Assembly: GCA_027941995.1 (NCBI GenBank)
Contig: CP115966.1
Location: 1,612,001-1,676,000, forward strand
Length of the DNA: 64,000 nucleotides
Reading direction: 5' to 3'
Origin: Erythrobacteraceae bacterium WH01K
Lineage (GTDB): Bacteria; Pseudomonadota; Alphaproteobacteria; Sphingomonadales; Sphingomonadaceae
Made by a program: the position numbers and the translations under genes. A model generated the notes under the pieces. The model was not told the origin of the DNA. It ran no database searches and saw only the letters and a program-made list of their open reading frames with translations. Shown one piece after another: positions 6,414-57,748 of this stretch; position 1 is the stretch's first letter, and each line of letters opens with the position of its first letter.

Positions 6414-8756
6414 ATGGAATTGTCCTCCACAGCACTGGTCTTCATCGCGCTGTTGCTGGCGGCGTGGACCGCGGCCGCAGCCGGACTGCTGATCGCGGCC
6501 GGTTCGCGCAACCGCGAGGCCGAGGCCAGCCGCCATGCCGCACGTCGCCTCGCCCGCATGATCGACGAGGCGCCGGCAATCCCGCTGCTGGTCCGCAGCG
6601 ATGGCCGGATCGAAGGGTCTGCACGCCTGGCGCACTGGCTCGGCCTGCCGAAAATGCCCGAATTCCTGAGCGAACTGCACCGCGACGAGGAAACCGGCCT
6701 GTCTCCCGAACAGCTGGAGGAGTTGACCGGTCATGTCCGCCGCGCGCAGAAAACGGCGGCTCCGTTCCGGATGGAGCTGAGCGTGCCGGGTTCGCAGCGC
6801 AGCCTTGCCCTCAGGGGCAATCTGGCAGACGCGCAGATTTCGCCGGGCGGGGCGGCCATCGTGTGGGTCTTCGATTTCAGCGAGAGCGAGACAGAGCTTG
6901 CGCGGATGCGTGAAGAGACAAGCCGGGCGAAGGGCGACTTCGCTGCGCTGGTCAATCTGATCGAGGCGGCGCCCATGCCGATGTGGTTCCGCGGGCGCGA
7001 TACGAAGCTCAGGCTGGTGAATGCCTCCTATGTCGAGGCAGTCGATGGCGGCACGGCCGACAATGTGATCGCGCAGCAGATCGAACTGGTGGAAAGCGTG
7101 GACGGGCTCACCGCCGCGCAAATCGCCGGGCAAGCCTCGCAGCAGGCACAGCCGATCGAACGCATCGTCCAGGCGACCATCGACGGGGAGCGACGCGCGC
7201 TGCGTGTCAGCGATCTGCCGGTCCAGGGCGAAGGCATTGCCGGATATGCTGTCGATATCGAGGATATGGAGCAGCAGGCCCGTGGCCACCGCGCCTATTC
7301 CGAAGCGCAGCGATCCATGCTGGACCGGCTGTCCGTCGGGGTGGCGCAGTTCGATGGGGAGCGCAAGCTCGCCTTTGCCAACCAGCCTTTCCGGCGGATT
7401 TTCGGCATCCGGCCCGGCAGCGGAACGCTGGGCATGGCCTTCGACCGCTGGCTGACGGAAGCGCGCGAGGAAAACCGCACGCCGGAGGTCCGTGACTTCC
7501 CTGCCTGGCGCAAGGAGCACCTGGATTGGTTCTCGGTCGACCAGGTGCAGGAAGAAAACTGGCCGCTTTCCGATGGAACGCACCTCGCGATCGTTGCGCA
7601 GCCGATGCCCGATGGCGGCCTGATGCTCATCGCGGAAGACCGGACCGAACAGCTTGCCCTTTCCGCGACCAGGGACACCATGCTGCGCACCCGGACGGCC
7701 ACGTTCGACAGCCTGTTCGAAGCGCTCGCCGTGTTCGCGCCTGACGGGCGTCTGCAGGTCTGGAACCGCTCCTTCGCCGCGACATGGGCGGTCGACGAGG
7801 CCCTGCTGGATACCCATCCCGCTGCCGACGAATTGCTGGACGCGATTGCCCCGGGATTGTCGCGCCCGCCGCGCGTGAAATCTATCGGGGAGACGATCCG
7901 CAGCGCCACCCTCGATCGCAAGCAAACGGCTGGCCGGATTGCCATGGCCGATGGCCGGACGCTGGAATTCGCGGGCGTGCCGCTGCCCGATGGCAACGGA
8001 CTTCTGACAGCGCTCGACGTGACGGCCAACGAACAAGCCGAAACGGCCCTGCGCGAACGCAACCAGGCACTGGAAGCGGCAGACCAGGTGAAGACCCGTT
8101 TCCTCGCCAACATGTCCTACGAATTCCGGACGCCGCTCACCTCGATCGGAGGCTTCGCCGAGCTTCTCGACAGCGGTGTCGCAGGTGATCTTTCGCCGCA
8201 GGGCCGCGAATACACGCAGGCGATCATCGAATCCGTCGGCCGACTGACCGAGCAGGTCGAGAATGTCCTCGACCTGTCGCAGGGCGAGGCGGGCCTTCTC
8301 CCGATTGCCAAGCAGAAACTGGAGCTGCAGAAATTCGTGACCGGCATCGTGCGCGAGCGCGAGCAGGCGATCGTCGGCAAGGGGCTGTCGCTGGACCTGC
8401 GCGGCAGCCAGACCGCGCGGCTGGAAGCGGACCCGCGCCAGCTGGGCCGGGCCGTGGGCCACCTGCTGGACAATGCGATCGAGGCAACGCCCAAAGGCGG
8501 CAAGCTGCTGGTCGATTTGTCGCGAAAGAAGGACGGTGTCCGGATCGTCGTCTCCGACAATGGCCGCGGGATGACAGCAGAGGAATTGTCCCGCGCAATG
8601 GACGGCCTGCGCCCTGCCGAAGACGGCGAAGGACTGGAGCGCCGTCAGGGCCTCGGCATACCGCTCGCCCGGCAATTGGCGGAACTGCATGGCGGTTCGC
8701 TGGAAATCCATTCGGAGCGCGGCGTCGGAACGACGGCGATCATTCACCTCCCGTGA
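6414..8756 (+). CDS. divL: DivL-type PAS sensor pseudokinase (tyrosine H-box)
   Basis: A 780-residue membrane-anchored kinase-like protein. One transmembrane helix lies at residues ~5-28, followed by several PAS-like modules, a dimerisation helix (HisKA) and an HATPase domain with N box (LLDNAIEAT), DNGRGM and GLGIPLA. The H-box reads ANMSYEFRTPL: the phospho-accepting histidine is tyrosine, Tyr569 (codon at 8118-8120). That substitution is the hallmark of Caulobacter DivL, which regulates CckA and thereby CtrA. Gene order with tsaE, amgK, murU and addBA also matches alphaproteobacterial divL loci. The ATG at 6414 has only a weak GGAA ribosome site; a TTG at 6378 was rejected because it precedes the membrane anchor. 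The stop overlaps tsaE. Confidence 0.88.
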   Translation: MELSSTALVFIALLLAAWTAAAAGLLIAAGSRNREAEASRHAARRLARMIDEAPAIPLLVRSDGRIEGSARLAHWLGLPKMPEFLSELHRDEETGLSPEQLEELTGHVRRAQKTAAPFRMELSVPGSQRSLALRGNLADAQISPGGAAIVWVFDFSESETELARMREETSRAKGDFAALVNLIEAAPMPMWFRGRDTKLRLVNASYVEAVDGGTADNVIAQQIELVESVDGLTAAQIAGQASQQAQPIERIVQATIDGERRALRVSDLPVQGEGIAGYAVDIEDMEQQARGHRAYSEAQRSMLDRLSVGVAQFDGERKLAFANQPFRRIFGIRPGSGTLGMAFDRWLTEAREENRTPEVRDFPAWRKEHLDWFSVDQVQEENWPLSDGTHLAIVAQPMPDGGLMLIAEDRTEQLALSATRDTMLRTRTATFDSLFEALAVFAPDGRLQVWNRSFAATWAVDEALLDTHPAADELLDAIAPGLSRPPRVKSIGETIRSATLDRKQTAGRIAMADGRTLEFAGVPLPDGNGLLTALDVTANEQAETALRERNQALEAADQVKTRFLANMSYEFRTPLTSIGGFAELLDSGVAGDLSPQGREYTQAIIESVGRLTEQVENVLDLSQGEAGLLPIAKQKLELQKFVTGIVREREQAIVGKGLSLDLRGSQTARLEADPRQLGRAVGHLLDNAIEATPKGGKLLVDLSRKKDGVRIVVSDNGRGMTAEELSRAMDGLRPAEDGEGLERRQGLGIPLARQLAELHGGSLEIHSERGVGTTAIIHLP

Positions 8757-52348: not shown

Positions 52349-53547
52349 GCAGTTTTCGCACCCTCGACGACTTGCCGGAGGATCTTTCCGGCAAGGTCGC
52401 GCTCGTCCGTGTCGATCTGAACCTGCCGATGCAGGACGGTTCGGCCACCGATGTCACCCGCGTGGAGGCGGCGAAGCCGACCATCCTGGAACTGTCGCGC
52501 AAGGGTGCGAAAGTCCTGCTGCTGGCCCATTTCGGGCGGCCGAAAGGCCAGCGCAATTCCATGATGAGCACCAGCTTCGTGCAGGGCGACGTCGAGGAAG
52601 TGCTGGGCAAGGAAATCATGTTCGTGCCCGAGGTTTCGGGACCGGTGGTCGAGCAGTCGATCGGCATCCTCGGCGATGGCGATATCGGCCTGCTCGACAA
52701 TGTGCGGTTCTGGCCGGGGGAGGAGGCGAACGACGCCGATTTCGCCAAGGCCATCGCCGCGCATGGCGATATCTACGTGAACGACGCGTTTTCCGCCGCG
52801 CACCGGGCCCATGCCTCGACCGAAGGGCTGGCGCGCCTGCTGCCGGCCTATGCCGGACGCGCCATGGAAGCCGAGCTGAAGGCGCTGGACGCCGCCCTCG
52901 GCAATCCGGAAACGCCGCTGGCCGCCGTCGTCGGCGGGGCGAAGGTTTCGACCAAGCTCGACGTGTTGCAAAACCTCGTCGGCAAGGTGCAGCACCTAAT
53001 CATCGGCGGCGGCATGGCCAACACCTTCCTCGCCGCGCGCGGGGTCGATGTCGGCAATTCGCTGTGCGAGCATGACCTGACCGCCACGGCGAACCAGATC
53101 ATGGATACTGCCGATCACGCGGGCTGCACGGTGCACCTGCCTTATGACGTGGTGGTGGCGAAGGAATTTGCCGCCAATCCCGCGTCCCTGCGAACCTGCA
53201 ACGTCCACGAAGTCGCTTCCGACGAAATGATCCTCGATATCGGTCCGCAGGCGACGGAGGCGCTGGCCGATGTGCTCAAGACCTGCCGCACGCTGGTCTG
53301 GAACGGACCGCTGGGCGCATTCGAGACGCAACCCTTCGACGAAGCGACGGTGGCGCTCGCGAAGACCGCCGGCGCGCTGACGCAGGACGGTTCGCTCATT
53401 TCCGTGGCCGGCGGCGGCGATACCGTGGCGGCGCTCAACCATGCGGGCGTGGCGGATGACTTCACATTCGTCTCCACCGCAGGCGGTGCGTTTCTCGAAT
53501 GGATGGAAGGCAAGGACCTGCCGGGCGTCGCGGCACTGAAAGCATGA
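52345..53547 (+). CDS. pgk: Phosphoglycerate kinase
   Basis: Makes ATP from 1,3-bisphosphoglycerate. The 400-residue product has the N-terminal [16 protein letters not shown] and [11 protein letters not shown], the [13 protein letters not shown] and [14 protein letters not shown] segments, and the C-terminal nucleotide loop [11 protein letters not shown] with [18 protein letters not shown]. It starts at GTG 52345, overlapping the gap TGA, so it is coupled to gap. It overlaps the next gene in turn. Confidence 0.96.
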
Positions 53548-53990
53548 GCGACGCTGTTTTTCCCGGCGGTCACATCGCCGAAGACGGAGAGTTCGCTGGC
53601 TGGTCCTACTGGCAGGGCGACCCGTACGAAACGCGCAGCGGACCGTTCTATACGCAGCGCGAAGAGGACGGGAGCTACGTGTGCGCCTTCCGCGCGGAAG
53701 AGCGGCACATGAACGGCGCAGGCTTCATGCATGGCGGCTGCCTGCTGACCTTCGCCGATTACGCGCTGTTCTCCATCGCGACCGACGAACTGGCAGGCGA
53801 CATGGCAGTCACCATGAACCTGTCCGGGGATTTCCTCGATTCCGCGCAGAACGGGCAGCTGATCGAAGCGCGGGGCGAGGTGACGCGCGCCGGGGGGCGG
53901 ACGATCTATGTCCGCGGCCTTGTGACGGCAGACGGTAAGTCCGTTCTCAGCTTTACCGGCATCATCGCAAAGGTCCGCAGGAAGGGATAA
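53544..53990 (+). CDS. Hotdog-fold thioesterase (PaaI-like)
   Basis: A 148-residue acyl-CoA thioesterase-type protein. The hotdog signature [19 protein letters not shown] is present, with the conserved glycine-rich turn and acidic residue of the PaaI/4-hydroxybenzoyl-CoA group. Substrate unknown. The ATG at 53544 overlaps the pgk stop (ATGA), so it is made with the glycolytic genes; why a thioesterase should be coupled to pgk is unclear. The halogenase-like gene follows by 7 bp. Confidence 0.85.
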
Positions 53991-53997
53991 TGTTCGG

Positions 53998-55518
53998 GTG
54001 ACGACGGGGCGGATCGGGCGTGTCGTGATCGTCGGCGGGGGAACCGCCGGATGGATGACGGCGGCAGGCCTGTCCCGCGCCCTCGGGCAGTCGGACCTGT
54101 CCATCACGCTGGTGGAATCCGATGCCATCGGAACCGTCGGTGTGGGTGAGGCGACCCTGCCGCAAATCCGCGACTTCAATCGCCTTGCCGGAATAAACGA
54201 GCGCGAGATGATGGCGCGCACGGCTGCCACCATCAAGCTGGGCATCGAGTTCTGCGACTGGGGCGAGCCGGGCACTCGCTACATCCACCCGTTCGGAACC
54301 TATGGCGAGGCCATCGGGCCCGCGCCGTTCCATCACTACTGGCTCGCGGAAAAGGCGGACGGCAATGCGCGAGCTTTCGGGGAATATTCGCTCCCCATCG
54401 TAGCGGCACGCGCAGGCCGCTTCGAACCGCCTGCCGACGAGGAAGGGCTTGGCGCCTACAATTACGCGTTCCAGTTCGATGCCGGCCTGTATGCGGCATA
54501 CCTGTCGGACGTGGCGCAGCGATCGGGTGTCCGGCGTCATGAGGGGCGGATCGTCGAGATCGAAAGCAATGGCGAAACGGGCGAAGTGGCAGCCGTCGTC
54601 ATGGAAAAAGGGGAGCGGATCGAGGGCGATCTGTTCATCGACTGCTCCGGCTTTCGCGCATTGCTGATCGAGCAGGAATTGCAGACCGGCTTCGAAGACT
54701 GGAGCCATTGGCTGCCCTGCAACCGCGCGTGGGCGGTGCCGTGCGCGACAAGCGCGGAGACGGCGCCTTATACACGGGCGACGGCGCGCGAGGCCGGATG
54801 GCAGTGGCGCATTCCGCTGCAGCACCGGGTGGGCAACGGGCACGTGTACTGCGACCGCTACATCAGCGACGAAGCCGCCGTCGAAACCCTGCTCGCCAAT
54901 CTCGAGGCCGAGCCTATCGCCGAGCCGCGCCAGCTGCGCTTCACGACCGGAAAGCGGCGGCGGATGTGGAGCCGCAATGTGGTTGCCATCGGTTTGTCGG
55001 GCGGTTTCCTGGAGCCACTGGAATCGACCAGCATAGACCTGATCCAGAGCGGCATCCTGAACCTCGTGACGCTGTTTCCGGCAGGCGCGATCGACGAGGC
55101 GGACGTGTCGGAATACAACCGCCTGATGGACCTCGAATATGATCGCATCCGCGATTTCCTGATGCTGCATTATGTCCTGAACGCGCGCCATGGCCAGCGC
55201 TTCTGGGACGACATGCGGGAGATGGAATTACCCGCCAGCCTCGCAGAAAAGATCGACGCGTTTCGCCGGCGCGGACTGACGCCGGACTATCAGGAAGGTT
55301 TGTTCCTGCAGCAAAGCTGGCTGTCGGTGTTCATCGGGCAGGGCGCCGTGCCGGAAGCCTTCGACCCGCGGGTGACAGCGATGAGCGTATCCGACCGGCA
55401 CGCGCGGATGGAGCGCATTCATTCCGCCATCGCGGGGCGGGCCGAGCCGTTGGAGCCGCATCTCTCCTTCATCGGGAAATACGGTGCGGTCTATCGCGGG
55501 GAGGGTATCGGACGGTGA
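53998..55518 (+). CDS. Flavin-dependent (tryptophan-)halogenase-family protein, catalytic residues intact
   Basis: A 506-residue FAD protein of the tryptophan halogenase family. It has the N-terminal dinucleotide motif VGGGTAGWMTA, Lys80 in ATIKLGIEF (the position of the chloramine-forming lysine of PrnA), the WQWRIP motif at 268-273 that is the family's WxWxIP fingerprint, and EPLESTS with Glu342. Such enzymes halogenate tryptophan, other indoles or phenols using FADH2 supplied by a separate reductase; sphingomonad homologues often have no known substrate. The GTG at 53998 follows GGAAGGGA. It is coupled to a degenerate paralogue by a GTGA overlap. Confidence 0.88.
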   Translation: MTTGRIGRVVIVGGGTAGWMTAAGLSRALGQSDLSITLVESDAIGTVGVGEATLPQIRDFNRLAGINEREMMARTAATIKLGIEFCDWGEPGTRYIHPFGTYGEAIGPAPFHHYWLAEKADGNARAFGEYSLPIVAARAGRFEPPADEEGLGAYNYAFQFDAGLYAAYLSDVAQRSGVRRHEGRIVEIESNGETGEVAAVVMEKGERIEGDLFIDCSGFRALLIEQELQTGFEDWSHWLPCNRAWAVPCATSAETAPYTRATAREAGWQWRIPLQHRVGNGHVYCDRYISDEAAVETLLANLEAEPIAEPRQLRFTTGKRRRMWSRNVVAIGLSGGFLEPLESTSIDLIQSGILNLVTLFPAGAIDEADVSEYNRLMDLEYDRIRDFLMLHYVLNARHGQRFWDDMREMELPASLAEKIDAFRRRGLTPDYQEGLFLQQSWLSVFIGQGAVPEAFDPRVTAMSVSDRHARMERIHSAIAGRAEPLEPHLSFIGKYGAVYRGEGIGR

Positions 55519-56978
55519 CGGCCAAGCCTTCACAAACAGTCCGTTCCGTTTTGCTCGCCGGCTTGTCGCGGGACGTATGGCTGGTTGCCGCGCTGCTCGC
55601 GCGCGAATTGCCCGAATGTACCGCGCTGACCGTGGTCGTGGACGAAACGCCCGTACCCCCGGCCGGCGCAGTCGTCCCGCTGGCCAGTCGCTATCACGAA
55701 CGGTTGGGGCTGGATCTTGCGGCCCTCGTCCGGGATTGCGGGGCGATCCCTTCGCTCGGAAACGTGCTGCAGGGTTTTGCGGGGGAGGGCCATTCGCTCG
55801 TCATTGCAGCGTCGGGCGATTTGCCTGCCATTGCGGGTGCATCGCTGCACCAGTTCCTGCTCCGCGCGCAAGCTGACGAGGGTGAAGGTGCGGACTTTCT
55901 GCCCTTCCTTGCGCCTTTTCGCTTCGCGGCCCGCGCGGCGGAGGGGGGCAAGTTCGCCTTGCCGGGCGACGCACCGGATTCGCCGCTTGCCATGCTCGGC
56001 CCGCAAGTCGGTTTCGACCGCGATCGCTATGCTCGGATGCTGCGTGAGGAATGTGCCGCGCGATGCAAAGTGAAGTCGGGAACGGTCGCGGGCGGCGTGC
56101 CGGGACCGGACGGGCATGTGAAGTCCGTCGCTTTGGAAGGCGGCGAGGCTGTCGAGGCGGATTTCTTCGTCGACTGCTCGGGCCGGATCGCTACGTTGCT
56201 GGATGCCTCGCCGGAACGGATCGACAGCCCGGCTTCCATATTCGGCAAGATCACCTGCGCTGTGGAGCCACTTCGGGGCGACCCACCGCTCCCGACATGG
56301 ACAGCGGATGCTCACGGGATCGCAGCGCGCATTCCCACCGAGGACGGCGACATCGTTTCCTACCGGCACACCGGCGAGGTGGCGGAAGAGCACCTCGCGA
56401 ACATTGCGGGCTCCGATGCAGTGACGCAGGACGCGCCAGCAGCTCTGGTTGCCGCGGCATGGCGGGGCAATTGCGTCCGGCTCGGCGAAGCGGTTGGCTC
56501 TCCGGGCAGCGTCCTGTGCGGGGATGCGGCGCTGCTCGCGGAAATGGCGCTCCATCTCGCCGAGTGCCTCCCGGCGCGAGCGGCGATGGCGGCAGAGGCG
56601 AAGGCCTTCAATCGCAGATACCGCGAAACCCAGGCGGCGCTCAGCGATTTCGCGAATGCGCCGCTCCATCTCAACAGGCGAAGCGAAGGGCCGTGGCAGA
56701 CCCTGGCGCGCGGAGCCCCGTCCGCCACGCTGCGCACACGCATCGAGCAGTTTGCCAGCCGGGGACATATCCCCTCGTTCGAGCGGGAATATGCCGACCG
56801 GCAGACATGGACCGAGATGCTGGCAGGGCTGGGCATCAGGCCCAGGACTTATGATCGCCGCGTAGACACCGTTCCGGAGCAGCAGGCAGCGCAGATCCTC
56901 CTGACGATACGGCGGCAGCTGGAAAGCTCGCTCGCCGCCATGACGTCACGCAAAGCCTATCTGGCGCAGCTCGGCTAG
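55515..56978 (+). CDS. Degenerate halogenase-family paralogue (probably non-catalytic)
   Basis: A 487-residue protein alignable with the preceding halogenase through its FAD-domain core (VEADFFVDCSGRIATLLD against IEGDLFIDCSGFRALLIE) and its C-terminal helical end. It lacks the hallmarks. The dinucleotide glycines are replaced (LLAGLSRDVW at ~13-22), there is no counterpart of the catalytic lysine or of the CDWG...HPFG region, WxWxIP is reduced to AARIPT, and EPLEST is absent. The frame is intact over 1.46 kb, so it is not obviously a pseudogene. The GTG start overlaps the upstream stop (GTGA), suggesting stoichiometric production and possibly a heteromeric partner. Confidence 0.75.
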   Translation: MTAKPSQTVRSVLLAGLSRDVWLVAALLARELPECTALTVVVDETPVPPAGAVVPLASRYHERLGLDLAALVRDCGAIPSLGNVLQGFAGEGHSLVIAASGDLPAIAGASLHQFLLRAQADEGEGADFLPFLAPFRFAARAAEGGKFALPGDAPDSPLAMLGPQVGFDRDRYARMLREECAARCKVKSGTVAGGVPGPDGHVKSVALEGGEAVEADFFVDCSGRIATLLDASPERIDSPASIFGKITCAVEPLRGDPPLPTWTADAHGIAARIPTEDGDIVSYRHTGEVAEEHLANIAGSDAVTQDAPAALVAAAWRGNCVRLGEAVGSPGSVLCGDAALLAEMALHLAECLPARAAMAAEAKAFNRRYRETQAALSDFANAPLHLNRRSEGPWQTLARGAPSATLRTRIEQFASRGHIPSFEREYADRQTWTEMLAGLGIRPRTYDRRVDTVPEQQAAQILLTIRRQLESSLAAMTSRKAYLAQLG

Positions 56979-56983
56979 CGCCC

Positions 56984-57748
56984 TCAATCGCGGCGATGTT
57001 CCGGGTTCGGCCATCCCGGCTTGCTCCCGTCGTCCCATTCGCTGCGAACGTTGCCGACCGGCGGGTAACCGCCAGCATCTTTCAGCATCCGCGCGGCATG
57101 GAGCAGGTTGAACGCCATGAAAGTGGTGTTGCGCTGGGTAAATTCGTTGTCGAAACCGGCGCGGCTGCCATCGTCCTGCTCGTCGCCATAGGATGGCCCC
57201 GGTCCCGCTTCGCCGATCCAGCCGCAATCGGCCTGTGGCGGGATGGTCATGCCGACATGCTGCATCGAATACAGCACGCTCATCCCGACATGCTTTATGC
57301 CGTCCTCGTTGCCGGTCACCACGCATCCGCCAACCTTGCCGTAGAAGGCATATTGCCCGGCATCGTTGGTCTGTCCCGAATGGGCGTAGAGTTTCTCGAT
57401 GAAGGACTGCGCGACCGAACTTTTCTGGCTCAGCCAGATCGGGGTGCCGAGAACCACGATGTCGGCATCGAAGACGTCGGGCGAGAGCCTCGGCCAGTCG
57501 TCTTCCGGCCAGCCGTGCTCGGTCATGTCCGGATAGACACCCGGCGCCAGCCTGTAGTCGGTCAGACGATGCCGCTTCACTGCGACGCGCTGCGTTTCGA
57601 AGATCTCGGCCACGACGTCCAGCAACGTATCGGTGTGCGAGGCCTCCCCGGGCGGCTTCAGCGTGGCGTTGAACAGGACGGCCTTCAGGTCAGAGAAATC
57701 GATCTCGCTCCCTTCGCAGATGGAGGTCTGGGTATCGCTGAGGGCCAT
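56984..57748 (-). CDS. Flavodoxin-like NAD(P)H-dependent oxidoreductase
   Basis: A 254-residue protein of the NADPH-dependent FMN-reductase/flavodoxin-fold group. Visible landmarks are the first-strand phosphate loop VLFNATLKPPGEASHTDTLL, the DIVVLGTPIWLSQKSS loop and the GKVGGCVVTGNEDG segment. AAAGGACA precedes the ATG. It is convergent with the halogenase pair (5 bp apart) and could supply reduced flavin to it, but the opposite orientation gives no operon support; a general quinone or flavin reductase is equally possible. Confidence 0.82.
   Translation of the reverse strand: MALSDTQTSICEGSEIDFSDLKAVLFNATLKPPGEASHTDTLLDVVAEIFETQRVAVKRHRLTDYRLAPGVYPDMTEHGWPEDDWPRLSPDVFDADIVVLGTPIWLSQKSSVAQSFIEKLYAHSGQTNDAGQYAFYGKVGGCVVTGNEDGIKHVGMSVLYSMQHVGMTIPPQADCGWIGEAGPGPSYGDEQDDGSRAGFDNEFTQRNTTFMAFNLLHAARMLKDAGGYPPVGNVRSEWDDGSKPGWPNPEHRRD

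Follow-up and report, generated by a model that had tools for sequence, protein, structure and literature searches.

A degenerate halogenase paralogue encoded directly behind an intact flavin-dependent halogenase is a probable non-catalytic partner subunit

The solved structures nearest to the 2 proteins discussed here are those of the flavin-dependent halogenases BrvH (6frl) and Xcc4156 (6y1w), and of the Pseudoalteromonas L11 halogenase (9luq). In BrvH and Xcc4156 the substrate site is open and its lysine is exposed to solvent; both enzymes accept indole but do not act on free tryptophan, and peptides or larger molecules have been suggested as their substrates (PMC5945002, PMC7336383). BrvH elutes as a dimer (PMC5945002), and in the crystal dimer of AbeH the 2 pyramid subdomains nest in an arrangement that the authors equate with that of other halogenase structures (PMC11840605). 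BrvH also has a second halogenase as a neighbour, encoded by 'gene 13', which lies upstream of BrvH (PMC5945002). Here, we analyzed a window of 64,000 nucleotides from Erythrobacteraceae bacterium WH01K (contig CP115966.1, positions 1,612,001 to 1,676,000 of the forward strand), in which an intact halogenase gene (A) is followed, on its downstream side, by a degenerate halogenase paralogue (B). The features of the pair, in coordinates of the window, are the following:

53998-55518, forward strand: gene A, intact flavin-dependent halogenase of 506 amino acids, assigned by PF04820, motifs, and trees
55515-56978, forward strand: gene B, degenerate halogenase paralogue of 487 amino acids, GTG start, frame open throughout, assigned by PF04820 and the predicted model
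55515-55518, forward strand: GTGA, 4 nucleotides shared by the stop of A and the start of B (sequence)
55560-55580, forward strand: GLSRDVW, B counterpart of GxGxxG(W), with the first glycine alone retained (alignments)
55752-55754, forward strand: Ser80 of B, aligned with the catalytic Lys80 of A (alignments)
55803-56003, forward strand: first pyramid (dimer/substrate) segment of B, retained (BrvH box limits from PMC5945002 via alignments; conservation)
56319-56336, forward strand: IAARIP, B counterpart of WxWxIP, both tryptophans gone (alignments)
56505-56522, forward strand: GSVLCG, B counterpart of EPLEST, both glutamates gone (alignments)
56715-56945, forward strand: second pyramid segment of B, C-terminal helices, retained (alignment, conservation)

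We followed previous work (PMC7336383, PMC5945002) for the motifs GxGxxG and WxWxIP and for what the catalytic lysine (K79 in RebH, K83 in BrvH) and the catalytic glutamate (E357 in RebH, E349 in BrvH, in the EPLEST region) do. In the alignments A retains all the landmarks of a competent enzyme (GGGTAGW, GVGEAT, K80, WQWRIP, and EPLEST), whereas B lacks an intact GxGxxG, the catalytic lysine, WxWxIP, and the catalytic glutamate, and its stretch aligned with GVGEAT is partly gapped. An earlier note, made from the letters of this DNA, had proposed that B keeps the VDCSG fold core and has lost every catalytic landmark. The DCSG of the core is indeed present and all 5 motifs are broken, but GxGxxG still has its first glycine and WxWxIP its RIP tail, so that 'every' goes too far; an intact site for flavin adenine dinucleotide (FAD), which would have spoken against the proposal, is not indicated by the motifs of B. 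The halogenase fold itself appears to be preserved. The PF04820 profile matched A with 606 bits and B over residues 13-455 with 148 bits (E = 4.8e-43; gathering cut-off 21 bits), and a model of B built from an 18-row alignment had a predicted local distance difference test score (pLDDT) of 91.1 and a predicted template modelling (TM) score of 0.90. This predicted structure matched 6frl and 6y1w with TM scores of 0.86-0.88 of the query length. Its best solved match was Xcc4156 (Z 39.1, root-mean-square deviation 2.4 over 466 residues, 21% identity), with BrvH at Z 38.2.

To follow the 2 genes among relatives, at most three candidates per genome were scored, and the orthologue counts are hence lower bounds. 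B orthologues were found in at least 19 of 397 genomes of the family, each directly after A; 17 of them are matches of at least 186 bits, and 2 are split in pieces (G146 and G197). Identity to the window's B ranges from 45% down to 28% in the 17 aligned orthologues. A orthologues (60-100% identity, the next matches falling to 56% or less) were found in 18 of the 397 genomes, all intact and all with B next, and these genomes are 18 of the 19 B carriers; in the 19th (G389), A is broken into 2 frames on a contig of 4.1 kilobases (kb). The co-occurrence that the earlier note asked about thus holds in both directions among the orthologues found. Together with one genome from an order sample of 396 (G480) and 4 from named records, 24 A-B loci were collected, with Parasphingopyxis marina and P. 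lamellibrachiae, of a genus placed in the Sphingomonadales (Pseudomonadota), Parasphingorhabdus flavimaris, Sphingorhabdus sp. 109, and several metagenome-assembled genomes (MAGs) among the carriers. The neighbourhoods vary among them, and by rough gene calls A and B alone are constant. On 2 short MAG contigs, L046 (the same as L096) and L093, A is broken across frames (2 of them in L093) while B is open, for which an assembly error and a real loss are both possible.

The frame of B is open in all 24 loci, although in L046 it is cut by the contig end, so the frameshifts in relatives named as a counter-sign were not seen. One candidate for a broken B, in G388, was rejected: a stop was marked inside the match, but the frame in L051 ends at 8492 and the match overruns it by a few residues, so the gene is not broken. 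The ratio of nonsynonymous to synonymous substitution rates (dN/dS, Nei-Gojobori) was 0.11-0.42 for B and 0.05-0.26 for A in 10 pairs, which are partly dependent (L099, L039, L040, L102, and the window recur). In 4 of them the dS of B exceeds 1.5 (up to 3.2) and the ratio is rough; in the 6 pairs with a B dS of about 1 or less it was 0.13-0.42. Neither broken frames nor a dN/dS near 1, the marks of a pseudogene, were found. B is under purifying selection and is not decaying, as the earlier note had supposed when it held that selection has kept the frame open.

The losses seen in the window recur across a set of 57 degenerate proteins (24 from A-B loci and 33 from clusters), compared with 55 intact partners (2 broken A were omitted). 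This set includes the proteins of 16 cluster regions (L099-L114), chosen for a degenerate neighbour already seen, which are included wherever residues, conservation, or deletions are counted and stand outside the regional survey described below. The catalytic lysine is present in 55/55 partners and 0/57 degenerate proteins. In 7 degenerate proteins found later, this position reads S, S, S, S, L, and C in 6, the seventh being unaligned. All 55 partners likewise keep both tryptophans of WxWxIP, both glutamates of EPLEST, and the third glycine of GxGxxG, as against 26/57 and 3/57 degenerate proteins for the first and second tryptophan, 18/57 and 5/57 for E339 and E342, and 17/57 for the glycine. 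At the junctions of the 55 pairs measured, the genes overlap by 4 nucleotides in 45, by 1 in 4, and by 11 in 2, and are separated by 1-8 nucleotides in the remaining 4; these counts lean to the value of 4, the script having chosen in one measured set the start nearest to it.

Decay is not even along the protein. Transfer of the BrvH box limits (PMC5945002) to A by alignment placed the pyramid at residues 97-156 and 410-486, giving 137 pyramid columns and 356 columns in the FAD box. Mean pairwise identity among the degenerate proteins is 0.224 in the box and 0.293 in the pyramid, as against 0.612 and 0.430 among partners; the pyramid/box ratio is 1.31 in degenerate proteins, 0.70 in partners, and 0.72 in other intact halogenases. 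When the labels were shifted circularly, 1 of 492 shifts gave a difference this large. Expressed as degenerate over partner identity, the box and pyramid values are 0.448 and 0.956 in the A-B set and 0.370 and 0.606 in the cluster set. Of the columns common to both intact types, degenerate proteins lost 99 of 224 box columns and 5 of 48 pyramid columns, and in each of 3 bins of partner conservation the residue of the partners is on average more frequent among degenerate proteins in the pyramid than in the box. Internal deletions of at least 15 amino acids fall in the box in 24/57 degenerate proteins and in the pyramid in 1/57, where length alone predicts about 2.6 to 1. In 7 relatives a single deletion of 90-99 residues removes part of the box sheet, WxWxIP included, and the model of one such protein (368 amino acids, pLDDT 84) still matches BrvH with a TM score of 0.85 of the query.

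Degenerate halogenase-like neighbours were also found beside intact halogenases of other genera. We surveyed open reading frames of at least 150 amino acids in 57 regions (48 genomes) around intact hits: 20 regions from the family, 10 from other families of the order, 11 from a class sample (385 genomes), and 16 from a phylum sample (398 genomes). The regions were hand-picked from among the highest-ranking hits by no strict rule, some high hits being skipped, and include close relatives (L148 and L150 are of one genus); G092, G197, G232, and G244, already among the 16 cluster regions, were left out, and in G793 and G1205 a gene between the hits was already suggested by their spacing. A degenerate gene was found in 24 of the 57 regions, each directly downstream of its partner and on the same strand, and none in the other 33, one of which, L127, says little as its contig stops 1.1 kb past the halogenase. 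By sample these are 15/20, 2/10, 2/11, and 5/16, in the order given above, and the carriers belong to 5 families (f1, f5, f58, f195, and f217), 2 of them, f195 and f217, outside the class. Profile typing assigned 23 of the 24 upstream partners to the group of A, called p1, and no p1-typed gene of the 57 regions stood without a degenerate neighbour; a degenerate gene lay downstream wherever the p1 group was seen in this analysis. Ten of these 24 partners were also placed in a tree, and 14 were typed by profile alone. Genome-wide separation of degenerate from intact genes by profile was tried and failed, as the B-family profile gives ordinary halogenases up to 280 bits and at most three candidates per genome were scored; orphan degenerate genes may therefore exist outside the regions around intact hits.

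In a tree of 62 rows, 22 partners form one side of a branch with support of 92 and 22 degenerate proteins one side of another with support of 100, while 18 other intact halogenases fall outside both groups. In a tree of 85 rows, the A-B partners are sister to the partners of L111 and L112 (support 98), and the B proteins are sister to the degenerate proteins of the same 2 loci (92). Both trees are quick searches, and the branches among degenerate rows are long (up to 6.8 changes per column), making placement there unsure. They fit a single origin of all degenerate genes but do not prove it. The recurrence in several families suggests that these halogenases may work as two-protein units.

From adjacency, overlap, matching history, and retention of the pyramid we infer that B is rather probably a non-catalytic pseudo-halogenase and an obligate partner subunit in an A:B heterodimer. 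A would carry out the flavin-dependent halogenation, and B would fill the second place of the halogenase dimer in lieu of a second copy of A, docking to it through the retained pyramid while its own FAD box decays; the overlapping genes would yield the 2 proteins in a fixed ratio. Most likely B would supply substrate docking, or stabilise and regulate A. The earlier note's proposal of a non-enzymatic partner is thereby favoured by the co-occurrence, the open frame, and the dN/dS values, with B presumably inactive as judged from its residues.

Several observations weigh against this heterodimer. In intact enzymes the pyramid varies more than the box and has less conservation to lose, although the difference survives the control by 3 bins. 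Because the pyramid helps to form the substrate site too, dimerisation is not the sole possible reason for keeping it. In solution AbeH is monomeric (PMC11840605), and the same may hold for Xcc4156 (PMC7336383), which makes dimerisation of A uncertain. Furthermore, 9luq, 6y1w, and 6frl score 710, 685, and 684 bits with the profile of the unpaired type and 643, 618, and 624 bits with that of the partner type; BrvH, Xcc4156, and the L11 halogenase are thus, unlike A, of the unpaired type by profile, and no known solved structure represents the paired type. One partner, L174, is 15 bits nearer to the other type by profile, yet the tree groups it with the partners. The loss of the lysine in 57/57 degenerate proteins is partly a matter of choice, 16 having been picked for lost landmarks. 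Some relatives, L099, L101, L102, L103, and L118 among them, retain GGGVxGW and parts of GxGE, and together with the third glycine kept in 17/57 this means that loss of flavin binding is not universal. Finally, B evolves faster than A in all 10 pairs, which weak constraint would fit as well.

That the pyramid also shapes the pocket opens a different explanation, which we consider unlikely but worth weighing: B could be a free-standing protein that binds the substrate and passes it on to A with no stable heterodimer. Box and pyramid flank the substrate site (PMC7336383), and some columns point the same way. At A434, glycine occupies 55/55 partners, whereas glutamate is found in 83% of 29 other intact halogenases and in 77% of the 57 degenerate proteins. 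The same pattern, in which degenerate proteins retain a residue of the other type that partners have lost, is seen at 2 further pyramid columns, A134 and A150, and at A331 in the box. This hints that substrate recognition could be split between A and B. The pattern is, however, limited to 5 columns (3 in the pyramid, A331 in the box, and an N-terminal methionine), and the 4-nucleotide overlap in most pairs suggests that the 2 proteins are made in a fixed ratio and assemble as they are translated, which speaks against delivery by a free protein. A type-specific interface in A was also considered and dropped: at the 70% level, partners and other intact halogenases have different fixed residues in no more than 3 columns, too few for proof.

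It is improbable that B has turned into an enzyme that catalyses another reaction, with nucleotide binding perhaps retained in some lineages. The predicted fold is intact, a few relatives retain GGGVxGW, and the acidic residue after the second strand (E40 in A) is a glutamate in at least 90% of 18 aligned B proteins, though a valine in the window's B. Nonetheless, of 11 columns specific to degenerate proteins at the level of at least 60%, none was judged a plausible new active site, and the 7 relatives with the long deletion lack much of the box sheet in one run. A helper that folds or stabilises A and takes no part in the reaction would leave the same genomic evidence as a heterodimer, and nothing in our data discriminates it; considering that other intact halogenases manage with no such neighbour (33 regions), we give this role a small probability. 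We hold it very improbable that B is a relic in decay that has survived by chance. Its landmarks are gone and its evolution is fast, but the low dN/dS, the frame open in every A-B locus, the recurrence in 5 families, and a pyramid nearly as conserved within B as within A (A-B set) all argue against such a relic.

The surroundings of the pair were inspected for a pathway. By names read from the translations, A and B sit between pgk and the gene for fructose-bisphosphate aldolase, with 2 close neighbours:

53544-53990, forward strand: hotdog thioesterase (4HBT) directly upstream of A, its likely ATG overlapping the pgk stop
56984-57748, reverse strand: NADPH-dependent flavin mononucleotide (FMN) reductase-like gene (PF03358, profile match), convergent with B

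Judging by this layout, pgk, the thioesterase gene, A, and B may form one transcript, and the reductase is a possible flavin supplier for the pair. The PF03358 family stands beside the pair in L039, L040, and L055 and is absent from the other A-B loci compared. As neither the thioesterase nor the FMN reductase is constant in relatives, a pathway reading from gene context was abandoned. The window's own genome has a second halogenase locus, L115, with an ordinary halogenase and a divergent one (L115:7078-8610 and L115:13600-15657), the latter carrying GVGEGS, WRWSIP, and EPLEAT within an open frame of 686 amino acids.

The 16 chosen cluster regions hold an intact gene, then the degenerate one, plus 1 or 2 extra intact genes alongside (in L110 the extra gene is on the opposite strand). 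A family of about 1,100 amino acids occurs in 15 of 18 loci compared, and its one scanned member is a TonB-dependent receptor; single scanned members of other neighbouring families matched GH3, GH9, GH43, GH26, ROK, MFS, Cupin_8, and DUF6445. Over 64 loci in all, pairs are either linked to a TonB receptor or solitary. Two loci (L053:2671-8839 and L054:2897-9065) carry a run of 4 halogenases, A-B followed by 2 further intact ones, which may be an intermediate between solitary pairs and clusters linked to a receptor. L128, from another genus, has a partner and a degenerate gene with no further halogenase within 18 kb. In L143, L144, and L146, from another family of the order, 2 intact-looking halogenases are convergent with overlapping open-frame ends; L146 is partly masked.

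As a tentative extension, which we regard as possible yet doubtful, a whole subclade of halogenases in the Pseudomonadota, often in loci with TonB receptors and glycoside hydrolases, could be heteromeric. The live subunit would never occur without the dead one, the latter would contribute part of the substrate site (such as the glutamate at A434), and the substrate would be large (a peptide, or linked to a receptor or glycan) and beyond the reach of the live subunit alone. Were the subclade an obligate two-subunit enzyme, assays of single genes would test half an enzyme, and its enzymes, if assayed one at a time, would pass for weak and promiscuous halogenases of indole. The pair would also show clearly how duplicates can divide their tasks, with one copy keeping the chemistry and the other the docking part. 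The question matters as genes like those of BrvH and Xcc4156, whose natural substrates are unknown (PMC5945002, PMC7336383), are common: 217 of the 397 family genomes have matches to A at E ≤ 1e-140.

The earlier note regarded a paired active and inactive flavin-dependent halogenase as uncharacterised. For the tryptophan type, no report of such a pair was found among the papers listed in searches of the open-access literature (PMC); one caveat is a predicted heterodimer of an active and an inactive halogenase that is already in print. In armeniaspirol biosynthesis, the halogenase-like protein Ams8, in which the lysine is replaced, is predicted to dimerise with the intact halogenase of the cluster, Ams9 (interface predicted TM score 0.86), and deletion of ams8 abolishes the product, as cited in the same paper (PMC13311259). 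Like Ams8, B has its catalytic lysine replaced and an intact paralogue in the same cluster. Unlike Ams8-Ams9, which is known from one secondary-metabolite cluster and as a heterodimer by prediction (PMC13311259), the A-B type, likened to it by description, spans the 64 loci, has sequences of the BrvH/Xcc4156 type and directly adjacent genes, and is far more deeply degenerate. StaK, a halogenase homologue termed inactive, is presented as the product of an antibiotic-cluster gene and not as an obligate partner (PMC11727664). Outside this fold, a dead paralogue joins a live enzyme in the ketosynthase-chain length factor pair (PMC13311259) and in the trypanosomatid pairs of S-adenosylmethionine decarboxylase (AdoMetDC) with prozyme and of deoxyhypusine synthase; all have unrelated folds, and their association was shown by experiment, whereas that of A and B is deduced from genomic patterns. 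The A-B pair thus appears as a new and widespread variant of a pairing of active and inactive halogenases that itself has a predicted precedent in Ams8-Ams9.

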